This document shows positions 4,353 through 41,254 of a stretch of 41,254 bases of DNA, in pieces. Source of the stretch: Candidatus Omnitrophota bacterium (GTDB lineage: Bacteria > Omnitrophota > Gorgyraeia > 2-02-FULL-51-18). Position 1 is the first letter of the stretch; each line of letters opens with the position of its first letter. The translations under genes were made by a program, and so were the position numbers. Where the stretch lies: the NCBI GenBank assembly GCA_016206805.1, contig JACQQX010000022.1, positions 1 to 41,254 on the forward strand, given 5' to 3'. The notes beneath the pieces were generated by a model. It saw only the letters and a list, made by a program, of their open reading frames with translations, was not told the DNA's origin and did not search any database.

Positions 4353-7260
4353 AAATCGCTTTCCAGGTTTCAAAACGGCATACCGCGTCATAAGGGCAAA
4401 AATCACAAGACTTGGACTTGATCGCGATGTCTCCCGCCTGCAGCCGTCGGACAACGTCTTTAATGGACGCTTCGGCGTTCTTTAAAATAGCTTCGAACTC
4501 TCCCTTGTCGTACAGTTTCTTCCGGGAACCCGGGCCCAACGCGTCTCGCAGGCTTTCCTCAAAAAAGGATTCCTCGTCAGCGCTCTCAAGAAACCGAAGT
4601 TCGGCCCCCAACACTTCCAGACCCAACGACCGGCGGGCGGCCAAAACATAGAGAGGAAGCTGAAGACCCATGCCTTTTTCCCATTTCTTGCGCAAACCAC
4701 CGGCGCCGGCCGATTTTTTATAATCAATCACAATGCCCGCTCGGCGATCCGGCGACACATCCATCCGGTCTATTTTTCCCTCTATCGGAATGCCGTCAAG
4801 ATCTATTTGGAATTCGTACTCAAATTGGGAGGGCACAAAACCGCGCTGGATAACCAGCTCTTTCTCGCGCCGGGCAAAAAGCGACAGCATTTCTTTCATC
4901 CGTCTTGAAAAAATCTTTCTCCGGTAAAGCGGCTCATAGCCAAACGCCTCCGGCCGCGTCAAGCTTTCCAATTTTTGATGAAGCCGTGATGACACCTTAT
5001 CCTCATCACTCCAAAACGCAGGATTGGCGCGATCGGATTCGGGCAGCTCCTTGTAAAATTCCTCGATGGTTTGGTGCAAAAGGTCTCCCATCTGGCGATG
5101 TTCGAGGCCCTCGGGAGGCGGGGTCAAACGCAGCACGCGTTCGGCAAAATATTTAAACGCGCAGGTTGCGTAACTTTCAAGTTTTGTCGCGCTAAACGGG
5201 CCCCGCATCGCGCCAAAAAGCTGAAGGGCCTCGGGATCTTCGATGCGCGCGTGGACTCCGCTGAGACTCGCTTTGAATAAAATTTCAGCCATGCCCCTTG
5301 TCATGTCGCGTCCACTCTCCCATTCACCGGGCTCCGGCAAAAACTGTCCCACCGATTTAACCCGCTGCGGCACATGATCAAAACACTTGAGGGCCTCTTC
5401 GACAAAGAAAGACTTGAGCGCCGGCTTTTCCTCGGCGTCATGCGTGGAAAATGTTAGGTAAAGTTTCTCGCGCGCGCGGGTGGCCGCCATGTAAAAAAAG
5501 TAGCGCTCGCCGTCCACCCGCCAGAGGCGCTCTTCCAGCACCACTCCCTTGCGGTTCAAAACGCGCCGCTGCGCGTCTTTAAAGAGAGGGTCCTCGGAGA
5601 TGCTTTGAGGGAACCGTTTTTCCAAAAGACCGGAAAGAAAAACGACTTTATACTCCTTGGGCAGCGCCATAACGGCGTCATACACTTGAACCCGGTTTTT
5701 TCCATAAACTTTCACGGAAAATAAAGCGCCTTCAATGGCTATTTTGAGATGCGCCGCGCAAACCGCCGCGGAAAAACTCCGCTTCCGGGAAGCGCCATAA
5801 TAAAGCTCGCACTTTTTCAGCAAGGCTTTCAAAGCGTCGGGGATCTCGCCTCCCAGCCAGTCCAGGATTTCCCGGTTGAACGCTTTGACGGTCGAAGCCG
5901 CGAGCAGTTTTTTTTCAAATTCCATCAAATGCGAAAGCGGTTGCTTTTGGTCATCGGTTAAACGCTCCGATCCTAACAGCCCCTCCCAGGACAGACGGCC
6001 CTCACGGACATTCTCATTCTGCGCGGCCCGCTCCAACGCCAAAGCCCGTTCAAAATCGCTCCCATCCCGGAAGCAATTGGATTTCAAAACATAAAAAAGG
6101 TCTTCGCGCCGCCACCCTTCCTCTAAAAGTTTTAAAAACCGATGAAGTGTGGCGGCAGGACCCACCTCCATCAGCTTTTTACGCTCATGGATATGCACGG
6201 GGATATCAAAATCGGCAAAAACGGAGGCGATCAGCCCTTCGGTGTCCGCCACCTGTCGCAAGATGACGCAGATATCGCTGTAATGGAGCGTTTCTTCCCG
6301 GTAGAGTTTTTTGATTTCACGCGCGATCATCTCGATTTCCGTGCGCGGATCGGGGGACTCCAGCACCATCAACGCGTTCTCGGGATTTTTAAAAAGTGCG
6401 GGCTTGTCACAAAAAATGTTCCGTTCCAAATGCCGCAAAACGGGATTTTTCGCGCGGTGGTTTTCCGCGAATTCACCACTGACCACAAACCCCTCTTTTT
6501 CCAAAAACTCCCGCGTGCGGCGCGGATAGGTAAAAAGCGGAGGCCTCTCTTTCTTATCCTCCGGCATCGTCAGCGTCACCACGGTTTTCCTCGCCCAGCG
6601 CGAAACAAGGCCTATCAAAGCCTTCTGCGCGCGCGCAAAATCATAAAAACCGTCAAAAATCACAAGGTCCGCGGCCTCGCCCGAAAGACCATTAGCCAAA
6701 ATCTCCCGGATATCGTCTTCCGGCTCCCGCAAACCCAGTTTCTCAAGCTCCGCTTCCACTTTTTTAAACACCAGACAGAAATCCTTAAATTTCCCACGGA
6801 AGATGGGATCTTTCAGCAACGGCTGGGACAGCGTCTCAAATTCACGCACACTCAAAAGGCCCGTTTTAAACTCCCGAATGGCGTCGACCAGAAGATCCTG
6901 AAAACCGGCCAGCCCCTTCACCGCTTCAAAAGCGTCCAGACCGCCGGTCTCTTCCAAAACTTTTTTCAGCACCGCTTTGCGCAGGGAAGCGGTTGGACGG
7001 CTGGAAGCATGAAAACCCAGCATGCGGGAGGCGAAATCATTGATGGTGAGGATGTGCACGTTAAAAAGACCGGGAAGACCCTTTTTCAGCACAAGATTCT
7101 GGATGCGCTCGGCATGTTCCCGGCTGGGAAGAATAAAAAAAGCCCGGCTTTCAATGCCGGCGCTCGTTTTTAGGATTTCATTTTTGAAAAGCTCGATACA
7201 AGCGGTGGTTTTACCGGTTCCGGGGGGCGAAAGAAGGAGAACCTTTTTAAAAGGTCTCAT
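4345..7260 (-). CDS. addB: AddB-like helicase-nuclease subunit (PD-(D/E)XK, Fe-S Cys cluster)
   Basis: N-terminal LLLSPPGTGKTTA; helicase-like AATRAREKLYL; GIVIDYKKSAG nuclease motif; C-terminal KSKSCDFCPYDAVCRFE. Confidence 0.85.
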   Translation of the reverse strand: MRPFKKVLLLSPPGTGKTTACIELFKNEILKTSAGIESRAFFILPSREHAERIQNLVLKKGLPGLFNVHILTINDFASRMLGFHASSRPTASLRKAVLKKVLEETGGLDAFEAVKGLAGFQDLLVDAIREFKTGLLSVREFETLSQPLLKDPIFRGKFKDFCLVFKKVEAELEKLGLREPEDDIREILANGLSGEAADLVIFDGFYDFARAQKALIGLVSRWARKTVVTLTMPEDKKERPPLFTYPRRTREFLEKEGFVVSGEFAENHRAKNPVLRHLERNIFCDKPALFKNPENALMVLESPDPRTEIEMIAREIKKLYREETLHYSDICVILRQVADTEGLIASVFADFDIPVHIHERKKLMEVGPAATLHRFLKLLEEGWRREDLFYVLKSNCFRDGSDFERALALERAAQNENVREGRLSWEGLLGSERLTDDQKQPLSHLMEFEKKLLAASTVKAFNREILDWLGGEIPDALKALLKKCELYYGASRKRSFSAAVCAAHLKIAIEGALFSVKVYGKNRVQVYDAVMALPKEYKVVFLSGLLEKRFPQSISEDPLFKDAQRRVLNRKGVVLEERLWRVDGERYFFYMAATRAREKLYLTFSTHDAEEKPALKSFFVEEALKCFDHVPQRVKSVGQFLPEPGEWESGRDMTRGMAEILFKASLSGVHARIEDPEALQLFGAMRGPFSATKLESYATCAFKYFAERVLRLTPPPEGLEHRQMGDLLHQTIEEFYKELPESDRANPAFWSDEDKVSSRLHQKLESLTRPEAFGYEPLYRRKIFSRRMKEMLSLFARREKELVIQRGFVPSQFEYEFQIDLDGIPIEGKIDRMDVSPDRRAGIVIDYKKSAGAGGLRKKWEKGMGLQLPLYVLAARRSLGLEVLGAELRFLESADEESFFEESLRDALGPGSRKKLYDKGEFEAILKNAEASIKDVVRRLQAGDIAIKSKSCDFCPYDAVCRFETWKAIYE

Positions 7261-7300
7261 AATCCTGGGGATTAAAAAACTTTCTTAGGAATTTTGTCCG

Positions 7301-7600
7301 TTAAGCGCGGGGCTTTGAACGGACGACTTCGATAGCGGTGCGAAGTTCCCGCACGACATCGCCTTCGACCTTGTCTTCAACGACAAGCTTGCGCAAAAAA
7401 TCCTTTCCGCGGGTGCTTGTCGTGTACATCGGCCAAAGACGGTTCAAGGCCAGAGCCTTGATATCCTCAATCGCCCGGGTTGAAAAACTCTCCCCTTTGT
7501 ACTCCAGGAGCAAGTTCTTCAAAACATCGGCCGCCAACTCTTCCATATAGTTGGTGAGGTGAGTGTGGGTCGTTGTCTGTGTTCTGACGGCTGTTGTCAT
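7301..7600 (-). CDS. ComFB-like small protein
   Basis: 99 aa with HLTNYMEELAADVLKNLL and RAIEDIKALALNRLWPMYTT, resembling the NxMEE...DIxALALNxLPPxYxxT pattern of ComFB-family proteins. Confidence 0.6.
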   Translation of the reverse strand: MTTAVRTQTTTHTHLTNYMEELAADVLKNLLLEYKGESFSTRAIEDIKALALNRLWPMYTTSTRGKDFLRKLVVEDKVEGDVVRELRTAIEVVRSKPRA

Positions 7601-7643
7601 TTTCGTCCTTTATTGAGCCAAGTATACCTGAAAGGTTTTAAAA

Positions 7644-9401
7644 TTACAAATGCCCATGGGCCGTTTTTTGAAACATTTTGGCCGGGCGGCCAAAATAATA
7701 CCCCTGCCCCAGATGCACGCCGCAATTGAGCACCGCCTCATACTCCTCCCGCGTCTCAATGCCCTCGGCGGTGGTCATGGCCTGGATGCCGTTGGCGAAT
7801 AAAATCATCGAAAGAACGATTTGCTGCTTGGTGGGGCTGGTGTCAATTTGGCGAATGAGCGTGCGGTCAAACTTGATATAATCGGGCTTTAAAATCGCCA
7901 CGTCCCTCAGCGAGACCGCCCCTCCCCCCACATCGTCAATGGCCACCGAAAACCCCTGGGCCTTGAGCTCCGCCAAAGCGCTCCGCATCCTCTCAAAAGA
8001 CCTCAAAATACTCTGCTCGGTGACTTCGATGACAATATTTTTGAAACCCACGACCCCTCTTTCCGAAAATAAGTTTTTCATCAGTCCGGGATCGATCAGG
8101 GTTTCATGGTTTAAATTCAAAAAAAGCTTCCGATCCGTCGGAATAGCCTGCCCATTCATCAACGCGTAGTCCACGCACAGTTTATCCAGCTCCTTCACGC
8201 GGCCGGACTCGCGCGCCACGCTAAATAGAAGCGTCGCCTCGTCCAGCGGCGCCGAGCCCACACCCCGCGTCAGGGCCTCGTATCCAACGATTTGGCGCGT
8301 CGCCAGGTCCACGATGGGCTGATAAAAACTTTCGATTTTTTTGCCGCGCAGCAGCGCGCTGAAAAGCGCTTCATATTTATCGGAGGCGCGCGGGGCCGTC
8401 GAAACCGTAACGCTTTTCATTTTGGTCGGGAAATGGATTTCCAAAGACAGGTTTTCGGCGGTTTTCGCTTCATGACCGCTGCGGCGATATTTCACATAGC
8501 AGCTGCCGGGCAGGGTCTTCATGTACTTTTTCAACTCGCCGGCGATGCGGCTGATCTGCGTCATTTCGGTCAACGGCATGTGATCGTTGTGCACAATCGC
8601 GATGGAAACGCTCATCAACGGATATTGAGCCAACTCCCCCTGCTTATCGCGCTGAACCAGATACCCTTGCGAACGGTCTTTGGTGTCGTAAAAACCGCCG
8701 ATCACGGAGTCAAAACGCTCAATGATCGCCTGGGAAATGCGAACGGCCGTTTCGGACTCCGTGAGGATAATCAAATCATCCCCGCCCAAGTGCCCTAGAA
8801 AATCATTCGGATTCCCCTCTTTCTTCAGAACCTGTTCGGCGATTTCGCCCAGCCGTTGAATCACCTCATCGCCGCGCGCGTCCCCATAGGCGCTGTTGAA
8901 AGCGGCCAGATCGGAAAGATCGATGCAGCATACGGCAAAAAGTTTTTTCGACCGGATGGCCCGATCGATGCGAACAACGCTCGTGCGGGTGCCGGGAAGG
9001 CGCGTGACAGGATTCACATCCAGCTCGCTGACGCGCTGGACAAGCGCTTCCCGCACGTGCAGCAAAAGCTCTTCGGCCCCTTTGGCTTTTGGAAAACAAA
9101 AATCGATCCTTTCCTCACCCGCCTGAGCGTTCAGCGGCTCCGGGCGATCCACCAGAAGAATGATGGGAATGGCCTTCAGCACCATATCCTCTTTGATGCC
9201 CAGCGCGATATTGCGGCCGTCCTTATGCCCATAATCCTCATCGATCAAAATGAGATTGGGCACCTCGTCAAAAACTTTGGAAAGAATATTATTATCTTCG
9301 GGATAAATAACCGCGCATTGGATTTTCTTGAGGCAGAGGGCAAGCGAGTCGCGCCACTGGGACTGGGGGGCGATGAATAGGACTTTATTTTTTTTCTTCA
9401 C
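7644..9401 (-). CDS. REC-like + GGDEF (degenerate GGDDL) + EAL protein
   Basis: Receiver-like N-terminus KVLFIAPQSQWRDSLALCLKK...LILIDEDYG; HLGGDDLIIL; EAL motifs YEALTRG, VIEVTEQS, AIDDVGGG, YIKFDR, TAEGIET. GTG start at 9401 preferred over the ORF-track ATG at 9437, which overlaps accA. Confidence 0.85.
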   Translation of the reverse strand: MKKKNKVLFIAPQSQWRDSLALCLKKIQCAVIYPEDNNILSKVFDEVPNLILIDEDYGHKDGRNIALGIKEDMVLKAIPIILLVDRPEPLNAQAGEERIDFCFPKAKGAEELLLHVREALVQRVSELDVNPVTRLPGTRTSVVRIDRAIRSKKLFAVCCIDLSDLAAFNSAYGDARGDEVIQRLGEIAEQVLKKEGNPNDFLGHLGGDDLIILTESETAVRISQAIIERFDSVIGGFYDTKDRSQGYLVQRDKQGELAQYPLMSVSIAIVHNDHMPLTEMTQISRIAGELKKYMKTLPGSCYVKYRRSGHEAKTAENLSLEIHFPTKMKSVTVSTAPRASDKYEALFSALLRGKKIESFYQPIVDLATRQIVGYEALTRGVGSAPLDEATLLFSVARESGRVKELDKLCVDYALMNGQAIPTDRKLFLNLNHETLIDPGLMKNLFSERGVVGFKNIVIEVTEQSILRSFERMRSALAELKAQGFSVAIDDVGGGAVSLRDVAILKPDYIKFDRTLIRQIDTSPTKQQIVLSMILFANGIQAMTTAEGIETREEYEAVLNCGVHLGQGYYFGRPAKMFQKTAHGHL

Positions 9402-23597: not shown

Positions 23598-23683
23598 GTC
23601 ATTGCGAGGAGGTCGCCTCGGCGGCCGACGAAGCAATCCCTGTTCAGAGATTGCTTCGGCCGCCGCGGCGGCCTCGCAATGAC
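23598..23683. repeat. Dispersed GTCATTGCGAG...GAAGCAATC palindromic repeat
   Basis: gtcattgcgaggaggtcgcctcggcggccgacgaagcaatc ... gattgcttcggccgccgcggcggcctcgcaatgac. Confidence 0.9.
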
Positions 23684-29424: not shown

Positions 29425-29577
29425 TCATTGCGAGCGCAGCGCTGTGCCCGCCAGCGCTTTGTGGCGGGAAGCAATCTATGCGATCACAGAGATTGCTTCG
29501 TCGTCACTACGTTCCTCCTCGCAATGACCATGCCTATCAGGTCATTGCGAGGTCGCCGAAGGCGACCGAAGCAATCT
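29425..29577. repeat. Dispersed repeat array, copy 1 flanking the GIY-YIG gene
   Basis: Contains 29486-29577, nearly identical to 29867-29957. Confidence 0.9.
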
Positions 29578-29860
29578 ATGCCAACTGCAAATCTTTGTAT
29601 TCGGAATTAAATGACTCTATCAACTCTAGCTTTTTCCTGCGCGATCCCGCTTTAATTTGTTTCTCGCGCGAGATGGCGTTATAAGCATCATTGAACATCT
29701 CATAATAAACCAATTTTGTCACATTGTACTTGGATGTAAACCCTTCGACTAACTTATTTTTATGCTCATAAACCCTTTTGGGAAGATCGTTGGTCACGCC
29801 GGTATAAATAACCGTATCCCCAGGATTCATCATCATGTAAACATAATAATTTTTACCCAT
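29576..29860 (-). CDS. Small GIY-YIG nuclease-family protein
   Basis: KNYYVYMMMNPGDTVIYTGVTNDLPKRVYEHKN...FTSKYNVTKLVYYEMFNDAYNAISREKQIKAGSRRKKLELI. Confidence 0.93.
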   Translation of the reverse strand: MGKNYYVYMMMNPGDTVIYTGVTNDLPKRVYEHKNKLVEGFTSKYNVTKLVYYEMFNDAYNAISREKQIKAGSRRKKLELIESFNSEYKDLQLA

Positions 29861-29866
29861 GGCTTG

Positions 29867-30013
29867 ACAGAGATTGCTTCGTCGTCACTGCGTTCCTCCT
29901 CGCAATGACCATGCCTATCAGGTCATTGCGAGGTCGCCGCGGCGACCGAAGCAATCTCTGTAAGAATGATATGACAAAGATTGCTTCGGTCGCTTCGCTC
30001 TCTCGCAATGACG
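29867..30013. repeat. Dispersed repeat array, copy 2 flanking the GIY-YIG gene
   Basis: acagagattgcttcgtcgtcactgcgttcctcctcgcaatgaccatgcctatcaggtcattgcgaggtcgccgcggcgaccgaagcaatct, plus a further inverted copy to 30013. Confidence 0.9.
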
Positions 30014-31329: not shown

Positions 31330-34300
31330 TTAAGCCGCCGACCCCACGGCGGCCAGGCTGGCGACCACCTCAAAAACCTGTTGGCCGACGTTGAAGGCGA
31401 CCGGCTGAATGGATAATTGAATGCGGTAAATCCGCGCCGACCCGTTCTCGGTGTTGACCACAAGAAAATATTTTTCGAATAGAATCGTTACCAATATCCC
31501 CGTGCCGCGGTAAATCAGCCGGCTCAGAAGACGGCCGAGCGGCGAATCGATCCGATAGGTGCCCTTCTTCTCCAAAGCTTCCATGATGCATGATTCAATC
31601 TCTGCTTTGCCGGGATAAACACGATAGCCCTGGTCGGTGAACTCTCTGCCGGTCGGCATGATTCTGCCTCCCATCGCGGCGATCGTATTGACAAACGCCT
31701 GGTCTTCTCCGACATCCGCAAGAATAACCACATGATACCTCAGAAGCCGGCTTCTATGAATCGCTTGACCGTTCTCGCCGACAAAATATCCGCGTTTTTC
31801 GTTCAGTCGGACAAAACGGACAAATTCATGCTCAAAACCAAGGCCCGTTCCTTGTCCTCGTTCCCGAATCAAATTCTTTACCTCTTGAATTTTTGAAAGC
31901 AATCTATCCGGACTGCGCGTATCACGGTCAATAAGAACCAGCACCTGGCGGTTTTCTGTTTGAAGGGGCCCTAAACCTCTGAGAAATTGAATGAACATCT
32001 TGTCCCCAAAGCGCTCGTCCGCCATCACCTGCATGGCTATCTTGAGCGCTTCTTTATGTTCTTCGGTCACGGCCGGTGAGACCGGCGCTTTAATGGCCCG
32101 CCCCTTCGACTTGGCCTCAAGCCGCCGCTGGATGGCTTTCTGAAGGAGATAGCTTGTGATCGGAACTTCCCCAAAAACGGCATAATGACCTTCGGCATCT
32201 TTATCGTGTAAATCCAAAAGCTCAAAACGCGCGGGTCTTGTGCCGCGATCATCCAGAACAAGCCTGACAGCCACATGCCTGTTGATTTCCACATGAAACG
32301 GAATGATTCTGCCTCTTTTTAATTCGTCCGCCTGTCTCACAAACATATCGGCTAAAATTTCCCGCGCTTTAGGACCCACCTCAGCCGCGTTGGCCACCCG
32401 CTCCCGCGGCAAAACCGTTCCCAGCCTCAAGTCGCTCAAGAAGCTCCGCCCAGGCGCAATAAATTGCGCCCCTACGGGGCCCCTCCCGTCATTGCCAGCT
32501 GCCGCTGCGGGCCAGTCATTGCGAGGCGCCTTCGGCGCCGAAGCAATCTCTGCCCGCCTCAACGTGTCCCCCACCCCTGTCATTCCCGCCACCCCTGTCA
32601 TTCCCGCGGAAGCGGGAATCGGTTTTTCCATAACGCCACCGCTTGCCGCCGTCTTTGCCGCCCCGGGCGCCGGGAGCGTCACCGCCAATCCCGCCGCCCT
32701 TAAGCGCCTGCCCAACCCACCCGGCCCGGCGACCCGCGCGAGCCTGGCTGAAGACACTTCGGCCTCCGCCAGCCGTGCAGGGCGCCCGATCTCGTCGCTT
32801 TCACCGAACACGAAATAGACGTTCCCCAGCTGATCCGGATGGTTCAATAACCACATCATTTCATTTTTTGTGACACCGGCTTCCGCATGGGTATTGAGCC
32901 CTGATGGGACAACGAAAACGATCGCCCTATTATCAGCGATTATGCTTTCCATAAATCGATCATGGTTTTCTTCCGTGTCGCGAAGATGAAGGGCCCCATA
33001 GGCGTCCGGCCAACTGACAAGATTAAGGTCCGTTACCCATTTCTGCGTTTGGAGGTCGCTTAACCCCAATAAATAACCTCCGCTAGCCGCTTCGCTGTGA
33101 TTTCTTAGAAAATCATCTATAAGAAATACGCCTCTAGACCGTTCTTTAAGAATAGAAACAACCGCGGGGATCAAATTCTCATTTTTTTCATTGAGAGACG
33201 GGAGTAACTCCGATTGCACGGCCAAATCAGGAACCTCACTTTGGTCAACAGCTTGCAAGAGCTCAGGCGCAATAAATCGCGCCCCTACGGGTCCCCTCCC
33301 GTCATTGCGAGCCCCCGCTGCGGGCCAGTCATTGCGAGGCGCCTTCGGCGCCGAAGCAATCTCTGCCTGCCCCAACGGATCCACCGGCCCGGCGACCCGC
33401 GCGAGCCTGGCTGAAGACGTCTTAAAAAGCGGCTGCCCGATGTATAAGGGCTGTGCTTCAGGGTCATGGGCAAGCCCGCTAAGATCATTCACCTCCTTGA
33501 TGCCGAACCCGCCGATTTCGTCGCCGGTTGCTTTTTGAATAAATTCTTCATACGTCTGAGTGGTCATGTAGAACTTTTTTTGCTTAAGATAGGCGTTTGG
33601 AACTGATCCTTCAGCAGGAGAAAATTCGTAGTCTTTTTGCAGTACGCTCATCATAACCAGATTCCGCGTCAACGGGTGCGTCTGCTTCACATCCGGAAAA
33701 GTTTCAAAGAATTTATTCAATAACGGCCTCAAAAGTTGTCGGCCTCTCAACGCAGGATTGATATAGACCCCCCGCATCCCTTGAGGCCGGCCCGACGCAT
33801 CCGAGATCTCGATGCTGTAAGCGAATAAATCTGGCATGGCAAAGCCACCCGTTCGCTTGCTCTTATCAACCCATAATTCAAGCCGCCGGGCACCCTTTTC
33901 ATAGTCAATCACCTTGAAGGGTGTGAAAAACAGGTCATCAATCGCTAAGGGTTCCAACTCCTCCGTTCTGTCCTCAAAAGCATCCAGCATTAAAAACCAA
34001 TCGTATGTCCCCTTATCAACCGACAACTTAACAGCATTCTTGTCTCTCTCGCGTTTTAAAAATTCACTGCTTCCTTCCGGTGAGCTCGCATAACTTTGAA
34101 GCAAACGCGCGATGCGCGAAACAGCGCCATGAGCTATTTGCATTTGCTTGATCCATTCACCATATGAATCACCGTTTGAGAAGCCAAGATCCAATATCAT
34201 AGTGGGATAGCTATACATCGGGGCGGAATTATTGATAACATCAACCGTCTCAGCAGGCCAACCATTGGTCAGGGTTTCAATGACAACCCGCTCGCCGAGT

Positions 34301-37300
34301 TTGCTGAGATTTCTCTCATTCCGTTTTTTAGATGCCTCTTTACTGATGTTCTCCGCATCTTCTCGAATCGCGGCAAGCGCGGCTCTATCGGGGTTATTTG
34401 GATCTAGTTTATATAGATTTTCTCCAATTGGATTGAGTCCTTGCAGAAGGCCTTCAGACCATTCTCGGGCAAGGTTCTTCGCATTTCGTTCTTCTTCCGG
34501 CGTCCACCCTTCCGGCTTTTCATCGGTAATGAAATTGGATTTATCGCTCTCCGCCAGCCGCGCGCCGGCGCGCTGCAGAGGAATTTGAAATTTAGCGCCC
34601 TTATTTTCATGTCCTCCATTGACGTTCTGAACCTCTATTGTTTTCGCGCCATGCATTTTAACGATTTCCCACGCCTCCGCCATGCCAAGACCGCCTTTTT
34701 CTTCAACCGTCCCGTCAGGTGTTTTCTTGTTTTTTGCGGATATTCCCAGCTCGAACATCTTAGGTCTGCCGTTTGAGCTGGGTCTCAAAAACTCCGGCGG
34801 AATGCCCCCCGCATTATCAGTTATAACGAGAGCGACGCCCCCGCCCTTTTCCATCGCTTCGATCATGACGGTCACCTTCCTATTTGATCTCCCGGCAACA
34901 TCATCGGTATTTTTTATGATTTCCCCCAAAGCCCGGCGAAGCAAGTGAGGCTGCGCCAACACCCGCAAGCCTTTGTCTACACGGTTCTCGATCCCCACTT
35001 TCACTTTGGGCTCTTCGCCGGCTTGAAGCAGACCGATAAGATCTCCAATAAGATCCCGCAGACCGATCTCCTTCAAAATCAAATCGCCGTTGATAAACTC
35101 GATCTGTGATTCGATAATTTCTCTGATAATGGAAGCGCTTTTTATAATCCGCTCTTTCTGCCTTTTCTGCCTTGCATCCACGAGATCCTGCTTCTCGCAC
35201 CATTGGATGATAGTCTCCAGTTGAGCTTGATACGTCATGAGCGCTAAAACCAGCTTTTCCACTTGCTCAAAAGTGATAATAGGTCTGAAGTCGGTTCTGA
35301 AAGACCGAAAGCGCTCAATATCGGTTCTGAGCTTATTGTGAATATCGTTTGCGCGATTCACGGCGTTAAAAAATCCTTCATTATCGGCTTCAACCAGCTT
35401 GGCCCTGATCGCTCCCGCGTTTAAGCTGAGCGTATTTTGGGGCTGCGTTATCACATCCAGTAGGGCGTGACCCAGCACACTTCTCAGCGCAATCTCGGTT
35501 CGTTGAATACGCTCCAATTCCAAGCGGCGTTTTTCGATAAAATGATCAAGCGCGGGATCCGCTTCTCCCGTTTGCTTCTCGTTAACGACGCTATTAATGA
35601 AATCGGAGAAATCGCGATAGTACCCCTCGCCCACGCTGCCGATTTTTTCCCTATACAGACGCCGCTCACCGTATCGAATCCTTTCGATCGACCATGAATC
35701 TCCGGCGTCAACAACGCGCAGAACAGGGCTTATATTGCCATTTAAATTAAATTCAAAAAATGCAGGTTGTCGCGCCGACGTATGAAGCGGTAAACCTCTA
35801 ATCCACTCGAGAAACGGAGGGGTCATCAAGGCCACATCGTTCCGTGAGACTGCCGCCAGCCGGGCTCCGGCGGTCGCTTTTTTCAAGTGAACGCGGATGC
35901 GCTCAATCCGATTGAGAGCCTCTTGGCGAAGCCGTAAAGGATACGTTTTGCGGGCTTTTTTCGCGCGGAGATTCATTTTTGCGGTATTGAGATATTCCTC
36001 GGCGGCTTCCAAGCCGCCGCTTTTCATCGCGACAAAGGCGCCGTCAAGCTGGCTTAAAAGGCGGAGACGCAGGATCCATTCCTCCGCGATGGCATCCTCA
36101 TTTTCGAGTATTTCCGGGTAAGGCCTCAAAATCGGCGCGATCGCCCAATATTTTAAAAGCGCCCGTTCTTTATCAAAAACCCCGGGGGCCCAAGTGAGAT
36201 AGTAAAATCTGACGGCGGCTTCCGGATCCATCATATCGGGAAGCTTCGCCACTCCCGTTTCTTTATGCAGCCGATGATACAGATTGAGGAAAAAGACCTT
36301 GTCCGAAAACCGGCTGTCCGACGTTAAAAGAGGAACGACTCTGTCGACCAAAACCTGAAATTCTGGCCTTTGGACATCCACGGCCGCCGCCTCTTCCTCG
36401 CTGATATCCAGGCCCTGAAGAAGAACTTTCCGCGGCTTGGGAAACTGCAGGCTGTAGGCCACAATCGTCCTTATCGTCTCAGGCTCGATCTGCGCGTGGG
36501 TCAGGGCCGGGCCGCCTTTCTGCCGCTGTCTTTTCCATCGCGTCTCAAGAAATTCGATCAGCATCCTCAAGGCGACAACCCGATCCCTTTGCTCCTGCCC
36601 AAAAAGACCCGCCGCAAGCTCATCATATGCCCTCCCGTAGCTTTCGACCCTTTTCAGGATTTGATTTTCATAGGTTGAGGCAGGACGATCCGCGGCCGTT
36701 CGCGAGATAGCGGCCGGCGCAGGCAATGGCCCAATCTTCGGTCTTTTCGGCGGAGACGGCGCAAAAGCTGAAATGAGGAAAAGCGACACCATGAGGCCAA
36801 CCAGCGACGCGCCAACCCCGACCGCCGCCGCGGATGGCGGAATAAAATTCGGAAGACTCCTCGACCTGGCAAGCCTCGCGCCGACACCGGCCCCTTGCGG
36901 GGTCGTGTTGCGGGGCTGGATCATTTCAAATCTGACGACAGTCGGCTCGACGTTCGTCGGAGGCACGAACACACTAGAATCGGAAAGATCATTTCGAGTT
37001 TTGCCGTCCAAATTGAAATATTCGCTAACGGCAAATGGCTGCCGGTAGTCCGTTATGACACGGCCCATGGCTTCGCGCACCGCGACAAGATTTCGCCGAA
37101 GGGTGAGATTGAAAAGACGCCCCTTTTCATGCATAATTGGAACGAGGCGCTGGACTTTGCCGAGGCGGATTTGAGGGCCAACTGGCAGAATTACGTGGAT
37201 CGTTTCAAGAAGGAGCTGAAATGAGCGAGAAAGAGTTGTTTGAAAAAAATCTGGAATTATCAACTGAGTTTTCAAAATACCTGCTGACACATCCGGAACT

Positions 37301-40300
37301 TGAGACGCAGATCCCGGAAAATGCCCAAGTGGTGTTTCTCCTGGATAGTGACCCTGAGTTGAGCCGAAAGAACCAGGATCTGGCCCGAAAACAAAAGGCG
37401 CAAGGCCAGTCGGTTCTCTTTGTTCGGGTGAAAGGCCTCCGCGAGGAAGTGTCCCGCCTAATCGACCCCCATCTGGAACCAAGCCCGGCGCTCTAACTCC
37501 CACGCCCAGCCCTCTGTCCACTGGCCACTGATTTCTGGGTCCTGCCCCTTCGCCCGCCAGCCTCGCTCCCCTTCCGCCTTCCGTCTCCGGTCTTCCGCCT
37601 GTTTTTGTCGCCAGCCTCGCCGGTTTTCCGCTTCCCTCTTCCGTCTCACCTCTTGCCTGCTTTTGAGTCATCCGCGCGGCAAAAGTTGTGGTCGTACGGG
37701 ATGCATTGTGAGCGGTAAGCGCCACGGCCGCGACGTATTTCATCGCCTCCGCAAATGTCCCCACGGCGTCATGCGTAAAATCCGCCGAGTGCGCCACAAA
37801 ACCCTCATCCCATAACGCCTGTTCCTTCCGTCTCATAAGCTCTTCCAGCCAATGAGCCAGTTCATGAATGATGGTATTAGCGGCATTTCGTCCCAACCCT
37901 CGCGCCAATCTTTGGTTTAAAAACATCGCCTGCTTTCCACGATAGACTCCGAAAGCACCTGCAAAACTTACGTCACCGCCGACCAAAAGTATTTCTTGAA
38001 TCCCAAAATTTTTTCTTATGGAAGTGGCCATCCGAAGAAGCTCTTTTTCCTCGGAGGTATACTGATCTGGATCTATGACGATCTTTTCCGGGTTCCTCAT
38101 TAGCAAACGAAACGATTGAAAGAATAAAGCCTGACTCACTTTTTCTCCGCCATGGGGCAGATCTTCCAAAGCGGGAATCCTGCCAACGGAATAGCCATTG
38201 GCTCTCATGAGTGCCGCCTGTTCGCTGGCAAGAGATTCATCCACCTGTTTTTGTATTGCCAGTCGGCGTAGAAATAAGCTTGTTTTTCCCCCCTGTTCTA
38301 CGGTTACCTCGAGAAGAAGCATGAGCCTGACGAATTTTTTTTCTTTGTCCAATTTTCCGGGTTCGGTGAGAAAACTCGCCAATTCATTTAGACTGACACT
38401 CCGGTAGTTTTCTTGGTTTATTTTTGAAGCGAGCCCTATGACACCCCGGTCGCCGGTATCGATGGAATTCCAATAACTGTCGTTTGTCTCCCAATCGATC
38501 GGAAATCCTTCAAATACAAACTGAGGACTTGTCTGGGTCAATGTTTCGTGAACAATGGCTTTGTAAAACTCCGCCGCCACGTATTTTTGAATGGTAGGGA
38601 GATACTCGTCCTCATGCTCAAAAGCGCTACGATTTCGGATGAGCGGGAGAGGGATTTGGAGAATAACTCCGAGCTCTCTGAAATGTTTCCGAAGTGGCGC
38701 CGGCACGAGGGCCATGTACTCTTCTTTTAAATCTCGAACTCTTAAGCCCCTTTTATCGACGATTTGGAGCGGCATATCCCTAGCGCTTAAAATTCGGAAT
38801 TTGCCGAAATTACGAGCCTCTTTCTCTCCCGGTTTCACCGCAAAAAAATCAGACTCGCTTAATACCCGATAATCCACCGTCAATGGCTGTCTTTTCCCTT
38901 CCGAGTCGACAAAGTAAATATGAAAATCATCGTGCTGGGCAAGACCGGCGAATGTTTTCCACGCCCTATGGGAAAGCATTTGATCCAGTTCCGGCACGGT
39001 ATTTTCAACCAGCTTCACGCGCCGGACCGTGTTGCCCATTGGCACCCCTTCCAAATTAGTAATACGCCTTCTACCCGTCAGTGCCAATCTTTTAGGAGCG
39101 CCTGAATCATCCTTGGTCAGGGTAAATGTATACAGGTAAGCCCTGTGAGAATTTCGATTGATAATCTCCACCCTGTCCGTTCCTTGGTGTCTTGTATATT
39201 TGCCCGTTCCGAAGAATCCAGCCAGGTCTATTTGAGCCCCTTCTGCTTTGGTGGATTTAGGAATAATGAGCGCATCTTCCTCATCAGCGCCGGGTCCATT
39301 ATCGGAAGCTTCTTCCACGTACTCTTCTATGCCGTCATCTCTCTTCTGGAGATAATAATCGACAACAAGTTCTCCTTTTTGTCCAAGCGTCGCGTCCCAA
39401 GAGTTTTGGGTGATTTCAGCGGTATGAGCCCCTTCTTCACGCTGGACTGTGACATTCTTTAAAATTTCAGCTTCCCATGCATCAGAACGGGGTGGCAAAT
39501 CATCTAAATTTTCAAAGAGTCCATCGAGTCCATCGCTCGTCTCATAGCCACCCTTTTTTTGATGTTGTTGGATCCATTTCATAATTTGAGATATCTCAAT
39601 GCCATCGACCGGTAGGGGAGTATCTTCTCCCTCAGGGACAAATCGTTCCGCCCGGCGAAGTTCAGGTACATCATTTGAAAGAAAGACCATAAACGGCCTT
39701 GCCGCTCCCAGCTCATGGGGCTTGTCGGGCCAGTCCAAATAATCCATCGCTTGCCTTATCGGAAGTGAGGAAAAAGCTCTCCATAACTGGTTCAAAAATG
39801 CTTTTTTTGTTTCAGGCTTTTTATCCAAAATGCGACTTAATTGTCCCGACGCCTCAGGTTTTTTCTTTATCGCCTCCGACAAAAACTGAAGGATGTGAGT
39901 TGTGTCCGACAATCCCGCCCAGCCTTCCGTAGCTTCTTCGAGAGCCTCGACAAAATCACTCACGGTTGAAATCATGGCCAAATGTTCCCGGCTATGCAGG
40001 GTAAAACCATAAGCGAGGCTCTTAAAAAGCCTCTCGTTAATATCCTCCTGCCCGATGTCCAATTCGCCTTTTGCCGCCAAGTCGAATAAACTCTTAAAAA
40101 GGTTCAAGGTGTAATTTTTTTGGTCTTGAAATGGTTCCACGGATATGCTCGAGGCCTGGGAAGCAAGATAAGCCCCCAAAAGCTGGGTGATCTTTTGCAT
40201 TCTCAAGCGAAAAATCTTAAACGGTAAGTCTGACGCGCTTAAATCCAGCTCATGACCTTCGGCAGCAAGTTGAAGCCTGTGAAGAATCTCTGTTTCTTGC

Positions 40301-41254
40301 TTTTCATAAAGAGCGTTAATCAACGGTTCAAGTAGACGCAAGACCTCTTCCCTGAATTCGGTCGGAATGAGCTCAAAATAGGACTCATAAGCTGCCCTTG
40401 CTTCCTCGATAAATTTATCGCGCACGGGAAAAACATGATCGGTCCACAGTGTTTGAATTTTGGATTCGGGACCGGTGATGGAGGAGACGGCAGGGCCGAG
40501 GCCTGGGAGGGCATCCAGCTTTCCCGCTTTGGCTTTTGTTAGGAGAAGATCGATCGCTTTTTCTTTCTTTACGGGATCGGTGATGGAAGGGACGGCAGGG
40601 CCGAGGCCCCAGAGGGCAGGCCCATGTCCCGCTTTGGCATTTGTTAGGAGAAGATCGATCGCTTTTTCTTTCTTTACGGGGTCGGTGATGGAAGGGACGG
40701 CCAGGCCGAGCGGCCAAAGGGCGTCCTCATCTTCCGCTTCGGCTTTTGTTAGGAGAAGATCGATCGCTTTTTCTTTCTTTACGGGGTCGGTGATGGAAGG
40801 GACGGCAGGGCCGAGGCCTACGAGGGCGCCCGGCCATTCCAATAGAGCTCGTGCTAAGAGCATATCGATCGCTCTTTCTTTCTTTACGGGATCGGTGATG
40901 GAAGGGACGGCAGGGCCGAGGCCTGCGAAGGCGAACTTGTCTCCCCCTATGGCTTTTGTTAGGAGAAGATCAATCGCTTTTTCTTTCTTTACGGGATCGG
41001 TGATGGAAGGGACGGCCAGGCCGAGGCCTAGGCGGGCCTGCCGCTTTCCCGCTTCGGCTTCTGTTAGGAGAAGATCGATCGCTCTTTCTTTCTTTACGGG
41101 ATCGGTGATGGAAGGGACGGCAGGGCCGAGGCCCCGGCGGGCAGGCCCATCTCCCGCTTTGGCTTTTGTTAGGAGAAGATCGATCGCTCTTTCTTTCTTT
41201 ACGGGATCGGTGATGGAAGGGACGGCAGGGCCGAGGCCCAGGAGGGCAGATTCA
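31330..41254 (-). CDS. Giant multidomain protein (partial at its N-terminus)
   Basis: Uninterrupted frame from the TAA at 31330 to the window edge. The track starts it at an internal Met (40863), but the frame stays open through more 105-bp repeats. Contains Sel1/TPR-like repeats, GHKL ATPase, HExxH motif, TM segment, histidine-kinase-like ATPase, GNAT-like segment and GARLA linkers. Confidence 0.85.
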   Translation of the reverse strand, partial: ESALLGLGPAVPSITDPVKKERAIDLLLTKAKAGDGPARRGLGPAVPSITDPVKKERAIDLLLTEAEAGKRQARLGLGLAVPSITDPVKKEKAIDLLLTKAIGGDKFAFAGLGPAVPSITDPVKKERAIDMLLARALLEWPGALVGLGPAVPSITDPVKKEKAIDLLLTKAEAEDEDALWPLGLAVPSITDPVKKEKAIDLLLTNAKAGHGPALWGLGPAVPSITDPVKKEKAIDLLLTKAKAGKLDALPGLGPAVSSITGPESKIQTLWTDHVFPVRDKFIEEARAAYESYFELIPTEFREEVLRLLEPLINALYEKQETEILHRLQLAAEGHELDLSASDLPFKIFRLRMQKITQLLGAYLASQASSISVEPFQDQKNYTLNLFKSLFDLAAKGELDIGQEDINERLFKSLAYGFTLHSREHLAMISTVSDFVEALEEATEGWAGLSDTTHILQFLSEAIKKKPEASGQLSRILDKKPETKKAFLNQLWRAFSSLPIRQAMDYLDWPDKPHELGAARPFMVFLSNDVPELRRAERFVPEGEDTPLPVDGIEISQIMKWIQQHQKKGGYETSDGLDGLFENLDDLPPRSDAWEAEILKNVTVQREEGAHTAEITQNSWDATLGQKGELVVDYYLQKRDDGIEEYVEEASDNGPGADEEDALIIPKSTKAEGAQIDLAGFFGTGKYTRHQGTDRVEIINRNSHRAYLYTFTLTKDDSGAPKRLALTGRRRITNLEGVPMGNTVRRVKLVENTVPELDQMLSHRAWKTFAGLAQHDDFHIYFVDSEGKRQPLTVDYRVLSESDFFAVKPGEKEARNFGKFRILSARDMPLQIVDKRGLRVRDLKEEYMALVPAPLRKHFRELGVILQIPLPLIRNRSAFEHEDEYLPTIQKYVAAEFYKAIVHETLTQTSPQFVFEGFPIDWETNDSYWNSIDTGDRGVIGLASKINQENYRSVSLNELASFLTEPGKLDKEKKFVRLMLLLEVTVEQGGKTSLFLRRLAIQKQVDESLASEQAALMRANGYSVGRIPALEDLPHGGEKVSQALFFQSFRLLMRNPEKIVIDPDQYTSEEKELLRMATSIRKNFGIQEILLVGGDVSFAGAFGVYRGKQAMFLNQRLARGLGRNAANTIIHELAHWLEELMRRKEQALWDEGFVAHSADFTHDAVGTFAEAMKYVAAVALTAHNASRTTTTFAARMTQKQARGETEEGSGKPARLATKTGGRPETEGGRGARLAGEGAGPRNQWPVDRGLGVGVRAPGLVPDGGRLGGTLPRGGLSPEQREPTGLAPFVFGPDPGSFGSTQGHYPGETPLGHFPGSASQVPDVSAGILKTQLIIPDFFQTTLSRSFQLLLETIHVILPVGPQIRLGKVQRLVPIMHEKGRLFNLTLRRNLVAVREAMGRVITDYRQPFAVSEYFNLDGKTRNDLSDSSVFVPPTNVEPTVVRFEMIQPRNTTPQGAGVGARLARSRSLPNFIPPSAAAVGVGASLVGLMVSLFLISAFAPSPPKRPKIGPLPAPAAISRTAADRPASTYENQILKRVESYGRAYDELAAGLFGQEQRDRVVALRMLIEFLETRWKRQRQKGGPALTHAQIEPETIRTIVAYSLQFPKPRKVLLQGLDISEEEAAAVDVQRPEFQVLVDRVVPLLTSDSRFSDKVFFLNLYHRLHKETGVAKLPDMMDPEAAVRFYYLTWAPGVFDKERALLKYWAIAPILRPYPEILENEDAIAEEWILRLRLLSQLDGAFVAMKSGGLEAAEEYLNTAKMNLRAKKARKTYPLRLRQEALNRIERIRVHLKKATAGARLAAVSRNDVALMTPPFLEWIRGLPLHTSARQPAFFEFNLNGNISPVLRVVDAGDSWSIERIRYGERRLYREKIGSVGEGYYRDFSDFINSVVNEKQTGEADPALDHFIEKRRLELERIQRTEIALRSVLGHALLDVITQPQNTLSLNAGAIRAKLVEADNEGFFNAVNRANDIHNKLRTDIERFRSFRTDFRPIITFEQVEKLVLALMTYQAQLETIIQWCEKQDLVDARQKRQKERIIKSASIIREIIESQIEFINGDLILKEIGLRDLIGDLIGLLQAGEEPKVKVGIENRVDKGLRVLAQPHLLRRALGEIIKNTDDVAGRSNRKVTVMIEAMEKGGGVALVITDNAGGIPPEFLRPSSNGRPKMFELGISAKNKKTPDGTVEEKGGLGMAEAWEIVKMHGAKTIEVQNVNGGHENKGAKFQIPLQRAGARLAESDKSNFITDEKPEGWTPEEERNAKNLAREWSEGLLQGLNPIGENLYKLDPNNPDRAALAAIREDAENISKEASKKRNERNLSKLGERVVIETLTNGWPAETVDVINNSAPMYSYPTMILDLGFSNGDSYGEWIKQMQIAHGAVSRIARLLQSYASSPEGSSEFLKRERDKNAVKLSVDKGTYDWFLMLDAFEDRTEELEPLAIDDLFFTPFKVIDYEKGARRLELWVDKSKRTGGFAMPDLFAYSIEISDASGRPQGMRGVYINPALRGRQLLRPLLNKFFETFPDVKQTHPLTRNLVMMSVLQKDYEFSPAEGSVPNAYLKQKKFYMTTQTYEEFIQKATGDEIGGFGIKEVNDLSGLAHDPEAQPLYIGQPLFKTSSARLARVAGPVDPLGQAEIASAPKAPRNDWPAAGARNDGRGPVGARFIAPELLQAVDQSEVPDLAVQSELLPSLNEKNENLIPAVVSILKERSRGVFLIDDFLRNHSEAASGGYLLGLSDLQTQKWVTDLNLVSWPDAYGALHLRDTEENHDRFMESIIADNRAIVFVVPSGLNTHAEAGVTKNEMMWLLNHPDQLGNVYFVFGESDEIGRPARLAEAEVSSARLARVAGPGGLGRRLRAAGLAVTLPAPGAAKTAASGGVMEKPIPASAGMTGVAGMTGVGDTLRRAEIASAPKAPRNDWPAAAAGNDGRGPVGAQFIAPGRSFLSDLRLGTVLPRERVANAAEVGPKAREILADMFVRQADELKRGRIIPFHVEINRHVAVRLVLDDRGTRPARFELLDLHDKDAEGHYAVFGEVPITSYLLQKAIQRRLEAKSKGRAIKAPVSPAVTEEHKEALKIAMQVMADERFGDKMFIQFLRGLGPLQTENRQVLVLIDRDTRSPDRLLSKIQEVKNLIRERGQGTGLGFEHEFVRFVRLNEKRGYFVGENGQAIHRSRLLRYHVVILADVGEDQAFVNTIAAMGGRIMPTGREFTDQGYRVYPGKAEIESCIMEALEKKGTYRIDSPLGRLLSRLIYRGTGILVTILFEKYFLVVNTENGSARIYRIQLSIQPVAFNVGQQVFEVVASLAAVGSAA
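32453..32554. repeat. Translated dispersed-repeat array, copy B
   Basis: ggcgcaataaattgcgcccctacggggcccctcccgtcattgccagctgccgctgcgggccagtcattgcgaggcgccttcggcgccgaagcaatctctgcc. Confidence 0.92.
33266..33367. repeat. Translated dispersed-repeat array, copy A
   Basis: Same about 102-bp sequence with about 4 differences from 32453-32554. Confidence 0.92.
34570..35500 (-). other. Histidine-kinase-like region with HATPase domain inside the giant ORF
   Basis: LGHALLDVITQPQNTLSLNAG; LRRALGEIIKNTDDVAG; LVITDNAGGIPPEF; EEKGGLGMAEAWEIVKMHG. Confidence 0.85.
36895..37224 (+). CDS. DUF7718-like small protein, antisense inside the giant ORF
   Basis: IGKIISSFAVQIEIFANGKWLPVVRYDTAHGFAHRDKISPKGEIEKTPLF...NEALDFAEADLRANWQNYVDRFKKELK; stop overlaps the next gene's ATG (ATGA). 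Start uncertain. Confidence 0.65.
   Translation: MRGRVAGLDHFKSDDSRLDVRRRHEHTRIGKIISSFAVQIEIFANGKWLPVVRYDTAHGFAHRDKISPKGEIEKTPLFMHNWNEALDFAEADLRANWQNYVDRFKKELK
37221..37496 (+). CDS. DUF5647-like small protein, antisense inside the giant ORF
   Basis: MSEKELFEKNLELSTEFSKYLLTHPELETQIPENAQVVFLLDSDPELSRKNQDLARKQKAQGQSVLFVRVKGLREEVSRLIDPHLE; AAGGAGCTGAA ribosome-binding site upstream. Confidence 0.75.
   Translation: MSEKELFEKNLELSTEFSKYLLTHPELETQIPENAQVVFLLDSDPELSRKNQDLARKQKAQGQSVLFVRVKGLREEVSRLIDPHLEPSPAL
37852..37866 (-). other. HExxH metallopeptidase-like motif in the giant ORF
   Basis: NTIIHELAHWLEELM. Confidence 0.7.
38550..39460 (-). other. GHKL (Hsp90/MORC-like) ATPase region in the giant ORF
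   Basis: HTAEITQNSWDATLG (N box), EASDNGPGAD (DNGxG), AGFFGTGKYTRHQG (G2-like). Confidence 0.75.
40466..41254. repeat. Tandem 105-bp (35-aa) Sel1/TPR-like repeats
   Basis: Landmark acggg[a/g]tcggtgatggaagggacgg recurs at 40571, 40676, 40781, 40886, 40991, 41096, 41201, exact 105-bp period; a degenerate unit near 40466; continues off the window. Confidence 0.96.

Follow-up and report, generated by a model that had tools for sequence, protein, structure and literature searches.

Two-gene modules of the toxin-antitoxin type very likely lie antisense in the linkers of giant genes throughout the phylum Omnitrophota, and a DUF7718-DUF5647 cassette nested in a giant minus-strand ORF is the case described here. 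That the cassette is nested in this way, with the host frame under selection, is almost certain. A cassette read backwards is a general way of living within another gene and not a freak, because about 29 Omnitrophota genomes have the same arrangement, which there involves several toxin-antitoxin families. The gene-internal architecture is well supported; the function we infer.

The cassette and its host gene

The following features were located in the window, that is, the whole stretch of 41,254 nucleotides that was analysed.

31330-41253, minus strand: giant ORF; 3307 aa when read to the contig end and 3177 aa when counted from its first ATG (40863)
33400-33414, minus strand: SARLA linker motif, adjoining a translated interspersed repeat (33301-33440)
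34552-34566, minus strand: GARLA linker motif
34576-34950, minus strand: HATPase_c domain of the giant ORF (PF02518, E 2.9e-09)
35854-35868, minus strand: GARLA linker motif
35875-36867, minus strand: host module after the cassette, membrane anchor and helical domain (homologs in G013, locus L011, and in G004)
36868-36882, minus strand: GARLA linker motif after the cassette (host orientation)
36895-37224, plus strand: DUF7718 gene (gene 1), 109 aa from TTG, PF24839 match
36895-37496, minus strand: part of the giant ORF antisense to the cassette, about 200 residues, free of stops and in codon register with DUF7718
37210-37215, plus strand: AAGGAG ribosome-binding site of the DUF5647 gene, inside the 3' end of the DUF7718 gene, from the sequence
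37221-37496, plus strand: DUF5647 gene (gene 2), 91 aa, ATG within the ATGA overlap with gene 1, PF18882 match and family alignment
37555-37569, minus strand: GARLA linker motif before the cassette (host orientation)
37609-37623, minus strand: PARLA linker motif
37633-38523, minus strand: host module before the cassette, HELAH metallopeptidase-like, by similarity to a giant ORF of G020

An earlier note had taken the two plus-strand proteins to be genuine, and profile searches agree: the DUF7718 protein matches PF24839 at E 2.1e-29 (101.9 bits, curated Pfam cut-off 25) and the DUF5647 protein matches PF18882 at E 3.3e-26 (91.3 bits, curated cut-off 27), with abundant homologs. NCBIfam gave no match for either protein, and PADLOC gave weak matches only. 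The DUF7718 protein retains all invariant residues of the family alignment; residues quoted in the note as KNLELSAEF actually read KNLELSTEF. The coupling of the two genes through an ATGA overlap (37221-37224) was confirmed, and the AAGGAG ribosome-binding site proposed there holds for gene 2, gene 1 having none. The sole start of the DUF7718 gene is the TTG at 36895, and neither an ATG nor a promoter was found in its start region or upstream. The cassette genes are intact in most copies, and in most relatives the cassette has a sigma-70 promoter, near the consensus and predicted to be leaderless, that lies 5-9 bases ahead of the start and points against the host gene. Judged from its sequence, the window copy, in which the relatives' promoter and start codon are missing, is probably silent or in decay, with its reading frames still intact.

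Because the giant ORF is open as far as the contig end, its true start lies off the contig. Its length of at least 3307 aa places it among the Omnitrophota giant ORFs by the criterion of a very long ORF, and loci L019 (JACPCP010000014.1) and L025 (CAKKQZ010000096.1) fix the phylum as Omnitrophota. Its modules are homologous to those of giant ORFs of relatives. The HELAH metallopeptidase-like module shares 49% identity with a G020 giant ORF (51.5% over 359 columns), and the G013 homolog of the post-cassette module has ARLA and a membrane anchor before the matched domain, without the cassette. No strain-level empty site was found for the window cassette, the nearest homologs sharing single modules only; a scan of genome contigs with the host segment gave no relative, and among host homologs none conserves the antisense segment without the cassette. 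A Pfam scan of the host frame through the cassette gave HATPase alone and no intein splicing domain, and NCBIfam gave only histidine kinase matches below the cut-off.

The cassette lies between two linkers, at 37569-37555 and 36882-36868, as the note had stated for GARLA; what recurs is more precisely the protein-level motif [GSP]-ARLA, which occurs 8 times in the giant ORF against 0.25 expected. GARLA was rejected as a DNA repeat, because the codons of the motif vary; the genome contains the exact 15-mer only once.

Cassettes in general are located in linkers between the modules of polyprotein-like giant ORFs, the linker motif in the window being ARLA. At L165, a paralogous host segment (89% over 1240 bp) stops at the cassette edge, and the L156 cassette lies between 91-bp direct repeats of the linker. 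Flanking direct repeats are present at some cassettes (L035, L036, L117 and L156) and absent at others; a target-site duplication was therefore rejected as a general rule, and no insertion mechanism is claimed. The linkers that hold cassettes also take up interspersed repeats.

Openness of the host frame

In Omnitrophota, nearly all DUF7718-DUF5647 copies lie antisense within a giant ORF and in codon register, and the host frame is consequently open across the cassette. This register is the only one in which synonymous codons can always avoid stops. In the window the giant frame passes through the whole cassette without a stop, as had been noticed earlier, and the antisense stretch corresponds to residues 1123-1323, counted from the ATG.

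The partner gene was recognised in 72 of 80 DUF7718-DUF5647 loci, and among these 72 pairs, drawn from genomes of 85,462 species, the back strand in codon register is stop-free over about 590 bp in nine: the seven Omnitrophota records without exception, a MAG labelled Chlamydiae and an Elusimicrobium. Omnitrophota pairs are stop-free at G+C down to 36%, at which unrelated pairs mostly contain 3-12 stops. The back-strand ORF at stop-free loci is mostly 501 to more than 6633 aa long, compared with a median of 89 aa when all copies are counted. In L070 and the Elusimicrobia copies, the back strand is open, yet these do not lie within a giant ORF.

The open host frame is neither chance nor a one-off. 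When both window genes were synonymously recoded with the codon usage of the giant ORF, the minus frame stayed open in 0.14% of trials, and with the usage of the other window genes in 1.5%; of nine embedded loci, eight kept the frame open in 0.01-0.14% of trials and the ninth in 7%. Codon choice at the embedded loci shows that stops are avoided through alternative codons for Leu and Ser: TTA and CTA account for none of 64 Leu codons (about 21 expected) and TCA for none of 36 Ser codons (about 6 expected), so that about 27 Leu and Ser codons reading as host-strand stops were expected and none was seen. Third-position identity at conserved residues is 0.51 in embedded copies and 0.50 in free copies of similar G+C. 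By this comparison conservation of the antisense peptide was not seen, and since the two values agree, nothing appears to be conserved beyond the avoidance of stops.

Other families embedded in giant genes

A Pfam scan of the back strands of giant ORFs gave families of the toxin-antitoxin type only (HicA, DUF433, DUF5615, DUF4258, DUF2283 and DUF7718/DUF5647), with 51 such gene matches antisense and none sense. In Omnitrophota samples of 30 loci per family, picked by score, HicA is embedded antisense at 10 and DUF433 at 17, whereas the transposase Y1 is embedded at none; neither HicA nor DUF433 is embedded in sense at any of 60 loci. Because copies within one clade are not independent events, these counts of embedded loci are to be read with that limit. 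Outside the phylum, in control genomes reached through the loci, DUF433 is embedded at 1 of 30 loci against 17 of 30 inside (Fisher p 8e-6). The embedded HicA and DUF433 loci are in register in 24 of 27 cases (p 3e-9), the other registers being used at 3 of the 17 DUF433 loci. In the window genome's own other giant ORFs, L013 and L016, no such family was found in register.

The first of two readings offered in the earlier note, in which a foreign cassette was taken up backwards into a linker of the giant protein, is strongly supported: many unrelated giant ORFs show the arrangement, the frame of the host is open against expectation, and even the decayed cassettes L121 and L122, with in-frame deletions of DUF7718, leave it open. 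The toxin-antitoxin type, the phylum-wide pattern with other families, and the missing promoter and start of the window copy lie beyond what that note saw.

Possible role of the modules

DUF7718-DUF5647 is probably a toxin-antitoxin module, so called by association. Like type II systems, it consists of small, co-directional, overlapping genes (109 and 91 aa in the window), and its distribution is patchy, with multiple copies per genome (10 of 386 Omnitrophota genomes, five copies in G281); a promoter of its own is absent from the window copy and present in most relatives. A PDB fold search gave no match for DUF7718 and a weak match of DUF5647 to 2dbs, TTHC002 (E 0.09, TM 0.63), and no literature on the pair was found.

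The host protein would be translated through the cassette, which it would tolerate as a spacer. An insertion that disrupts the host frame would be lost, and cassette lineages whose back strand is already open would spread best. Once in place, a module may addict the cell to the surrounding giant gene, whose many repeats make it prone to deletion. We tentatively propose that the putative module stabilises the giant gene rather than merely riding in it. It is likewise conceivable, if short of probable, that several toxin-antitoxin families have adapted to gene-internal life, with a stop-free complementary strand, a host that reads through and a cell addicted to the gene, as a class of passenger set apart from inteins, introns and integron cassettes.

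The modules might instead be selfish hitchhikers of the linkers, whose loss is costly to the cell and which bring no gain to the giant gene. This pure tolerance has an appreciable chance of being correct, since the cassettes sit in linkers that receive interspersed repeats as well and some of them are decaying (L121, L122 and the promoterless window copy). Up to four or five modules per giant ORF and the retention of the catalytic His in all 16 embedded HicA proteins speak against it, but are also compatible with selfishness. Regulation of the giant gene by antisense transcription from the modules' own promoters accords with the sigma-70 promoters of most DUF7718 cassettes, but it is improbable, because antisense promoters alone need neither intact toxin genes nor several families, and the window copy has none. 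A function of the antisense peptide within the giant protein, with the plus-strand genes as by-products, is very improbable: the frame is open even where DUF7718 is mostly deleted, but embedded and free copies agree in third-position identity. The other reading of the earlier note, two genes joined by a luckily open antisense frame, is barely credible, for although the stretch has no host-like domain and its coding profile is that of the antisense of the cassette, in-register openness is repeated across unrelated giant ORFs and toxin-antitoxin families, the per-locus chance is mostly below 0.2%, the upstream host module has no stop, and the frame re-enters the next ARLA module.

The proposed stabilisation of giant genes by nested modules has a parallel in the Vibrio superintegron, where a toxin-antitoxin system has been proposed as a stabiliser, and where, as in other mobile elements, such cassettes have their own promoters and lie inside long arrays (PMC12548467, PMC11014356). 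Integron cassettes, however, lie between genes and are mobile by attC sites, whereas the Omnitrophota cassettes are antisense inside one open protein-coding ORF. Inteins and group I/II introns likewise persist inside genes since the host product survives, but they remove themselves from protein or RNA; the Omnitrophota cassette has no sign of splicing and is apparently translated through backwards. Antisense overlapping bacterial genes are typically young, lineage-specific small ORFs. Those of E. coli O157:H7, for example, also have a protein encoded on each strand of a single stretch (PMC9927249), but the Omnitrophota cassettes belong to known conserved families and are nested repeatedly and in register.

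Giant genes of Omnitrophota are among the longest reported and are poorly understood. Seymour et al. (2023, PMC10066038) characterise the giant ORFs as exceeding 20 kb, with few annotated domains, many membrane helices and poor conservation; the parts of their account considered here make no mention of toxin-antitoxin modules, back-strand genes or lineage-specific linker motifs (ARLA, [AS][AS]SP[VLI], DGG). If addiction modules nest in many giant genes, they would offer a concrete and testable answer to how long, repeat-rich genes survive against deletion. The embedded loci make up a large natural collection in which known protein families overlap antisense over long distances, following a simple register rule. 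They also carry a warning for annotation: a gene caller that does not permit long overlaps will probably miss or disrupt one or the other at such sites, the giant gene or the toxin-antitoxin genes.

Giant ORF and cassette in the window

The two plus-strand genes proposed in the earlier note both lie within the open minus-strand frame and overlap by ATGA as described there, and an HMM search assigned them to DUF7718 and DUF5647 with Pfam scores well over the curated cut-offs. The good AAGGAG ribosome-binding site also claimed holds for gene 2 and not for gene 1, for which TTG is the sole start and no sequence resembling such a site was found before it.

Features of the window, and giant ORFs elsewhere in its 1.39-Mb genome
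41253 to 31330, minus: giant ORF, open frame of 3307 aa (3177 aa from the first ATG), without a start on the contig
36895-37224, plus: gene 1, DUF7718 (E 2.1e-29)
37210-37215: AAGGAG, ribosome-binding site for gene 2
37221-37496, plus: gene 2, DUF5647 (E 3.3e-26)
32481-32780 and 33301-33440: interspersed repeat translated within ARLA linkers
23645-23683, 29541-29582 and 29922-29960: further copies of this repeat, outside the giant ORF
L013:3621-16721 and L015:636-17999: ARLA-linked giant ORFs with ordinary metabolic enzymes as modules

The DUF5647 model of gene 2 shows a weak likeness to TTHC002 (2dbs) of Thermus thermophilus, itself of unknown function (TM 0.63, 21% identity, E 0.09).

The giant ORFs resemble separate proteins strung together; one in the same genome joins starch synthase, a GH15 glycosidase and sigma-70 region 4, and another joins dihydrodipicolinate synthase and a metallophosphatase. 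Modules are separated by AR[LM]A in the family and order to which the window belongs, by [AS][AS]SP[VLI] in genomes G244, G281 and others, and by DGG in G243, and this layout is seen in the window (31330-41253) and at loci L010-L018, L115-L119, L122, L156 and L163. Linker-motif counts greatly exceed expectation (for example, SSPV 12 versus 0.07), and a membrane anchor follows shortly after the motif at the start of several modules; the motifs could be polyprotein cleavage sites. The cassettes are placed in linkers or close by. The metallopeptidase-like module preceding the window cassette is 51.5% identical to that of a G020 giant ORF, in which an HD domain follows without a cassette, and in G013 the counterpart of the module after the cassette comes straight after ARLA.

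Openness of the host frame

When both genes were recoded synonymously, the minus frame remained open in 1.5% of recodings under the codon usage of the other window genes (two per-gene values multiplied) and in 0.14% under giant-ORF usage, percentages that by themselves are only suggestive against chance. It is the comparison across loci that decides the question. A DUF7718 scan over genomes of 85,462 species yielded 80 loci, with a DUF5647 partner recognised in 72. Nine of these pairs (seven from Omnitrophota records, one from a MAG labelled Chlamydiae and one from an Elusimicrobium) have a back strand free of stops in the DUF7718 register, and the rest carry 1 to 12 stops, mostly 3 or more. 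The back-strand ORF of the Omnitrophota copies reaches well past the pair: in most it measures at least 1806 aa, and one exceeds 6633 aa, against a median of 89 aa across all copies. The exceptions are L070/L123 (Omnitrophota; 205 aa, barely spanning the pair), decayed fragments with back-strand stops in G065 and G070, and L036 and L037 (Elusimicrobia; 232 and 200 aa). In G281, five separate contigs each have a giant ORF with a DUF5647 cassette antisense inside it. In a tree built from 82 pairs, the nine embedded copies (antisense inside a giant ORF) all belong to a single well-supported clade of 16; their distribution needs only four changes of state, and each of 500 shuffles needed more.

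The codons that read as stops on the host strand in this register (TTA, CTA and TCA) are absent from DUF7718 of the nine embedded copies tested: TTA/CTA encode 0 of 64 leucines and TCA 0 of 36 serines, where about 21 and 6 are expected from codon usage at the same loci. Third-position identity is 0.51 in embedded and 0.50 in free copies at G+C 0.33-0.42, and 0.49 versus 0.42 at higher G+C, where embedded pairs number only four. Because embedded and free copies agree equally at other synonymous sites, conservation of the antisense peptide is not seen; judged from these codons, what is kept is the openness of the host frame. At L121 and L122 an in-frame deletion has removed most of DUF7718, and the host frame is open nonetheless.

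Other families of toxin-antitoxin type

HicBA and DUF433-DUF5615 are toxin-antitoxin pairs, established or well accepted as such. When back strands of giant ORFs were read in register, through stops, against Pfam, those scanned matched DUF433, DUF5615, DUF4258, DUF2283, HicA, DUF5647 and DUF7718 and no other family; two giant ORFs of the window's genome gave no match. At L122, one ORF (at least 6633 aa) contains complete HicBA, DUF433-DUF5615 and DUF4258-DUF2283 together with a decayed DUF7718-DUF5647, and in the window's genome HicBA lies antisense in a 5788-aa ORF (contig C38) with ARMA and ARLA motifs on either side. With local profiles, 51 genes of these families were antisense in giant ORFs and none sense, and the register was kept by 16/16 HicA and 7/7 DUF433. 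At L119 (G281:C94, oriented about 7140-7870), the partner of DUF5647 is an aspartic-protease-like ORF (DTGA motif) joined to the DUF7718 end; this pair is antisense with the host frame open, and is possibly a hybrid module.

Control samples comprised the best 30 loci by score per family search, chosen irrespective of genomic context. HicA was embedded in 10/30 and DUF433 in 17/30 (14 in register); Y1 transposase, mobile and not addictive, was embedded in 0/30, and DUF433 outside the phylum Omnitrophota (48 genomes) in 1/30, a 412-aa ORF in G+C-rich DNA. Fisher p values were 8e-6 (DUF433 inside versus outside the phylum) and 1.5e-6, with some loci sharing a genome or clade; the register bias was 24/27 (p 3e-9, loci likewise not fully independent), and sense embedding was 0/60.

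Activity, maintenance and spread of the modules

The catalytic histidine is retained in 16/16 embedded HicA, and a ribosome-binding site accompanies 17/18 embedded HicB and 7/7 embedded DUF433. Most DUF7718 cassettes have a -35/-10 pair with 17-bp spacing; because the -10 element ends 5-9 bases ahead of the start codon, a leaderless mRNA is suggested. Predicted promoter scores are 8 to 12 of 12 in 10/11 relatives, those of L036 and L123 being equalled by shuffles in over 10% of trials. No such pair was found at L120 or in the window copy, which, though its reading frames are intact, is probably no longer expressed.

The bias in orientation and family is best accounted for by modules that act as addictive passengers, which once inside would be difficult to lose and would be tolerated only if the host frame survives. 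In-register antisense is the sole back-strand register in which every stop lies opposite a leucine or serine codon that has synonyms, which explains the in-register bias; any protein can be encoded there without closing the host frame. Because internal repeats are plentiful in giant ORFs (L165, L115), a nested addiction module would make deletion costly, much as a toxin-antitoxin system has been proposed to stabilise the Vibrio superintegron by penalising deletion (PMC12548467).

The components are known, both the modules themselves and addiction as a mechanism, and the arrangement, a gene-internal, back-strand niche, appears new. Outside subscription journals and preprints, full-text searches turned up no mention of DUF5647 or DUF7718, and the titles and abstracts listed on toxin-antitoxin systems with Omnitrophota or on nested antisense genes described no modules nested in giant ORFs; giant-ORF passages in the Omnitrophota survey (PMC10066038) do not mention them.

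In the MAG labelled Chlamydiae (L035, JACPWU010000046.1), host segments are repeated on both sides of a cassette within a giant ORF, reflecting either interphylum transfer within PVC or a misassigned contig. The Elusimicrobium cassette (L036) has 37% G+C in a contig of 57% G+C, is flanked by 134-bp direct repeats (85%), and looks like a recent arrival.
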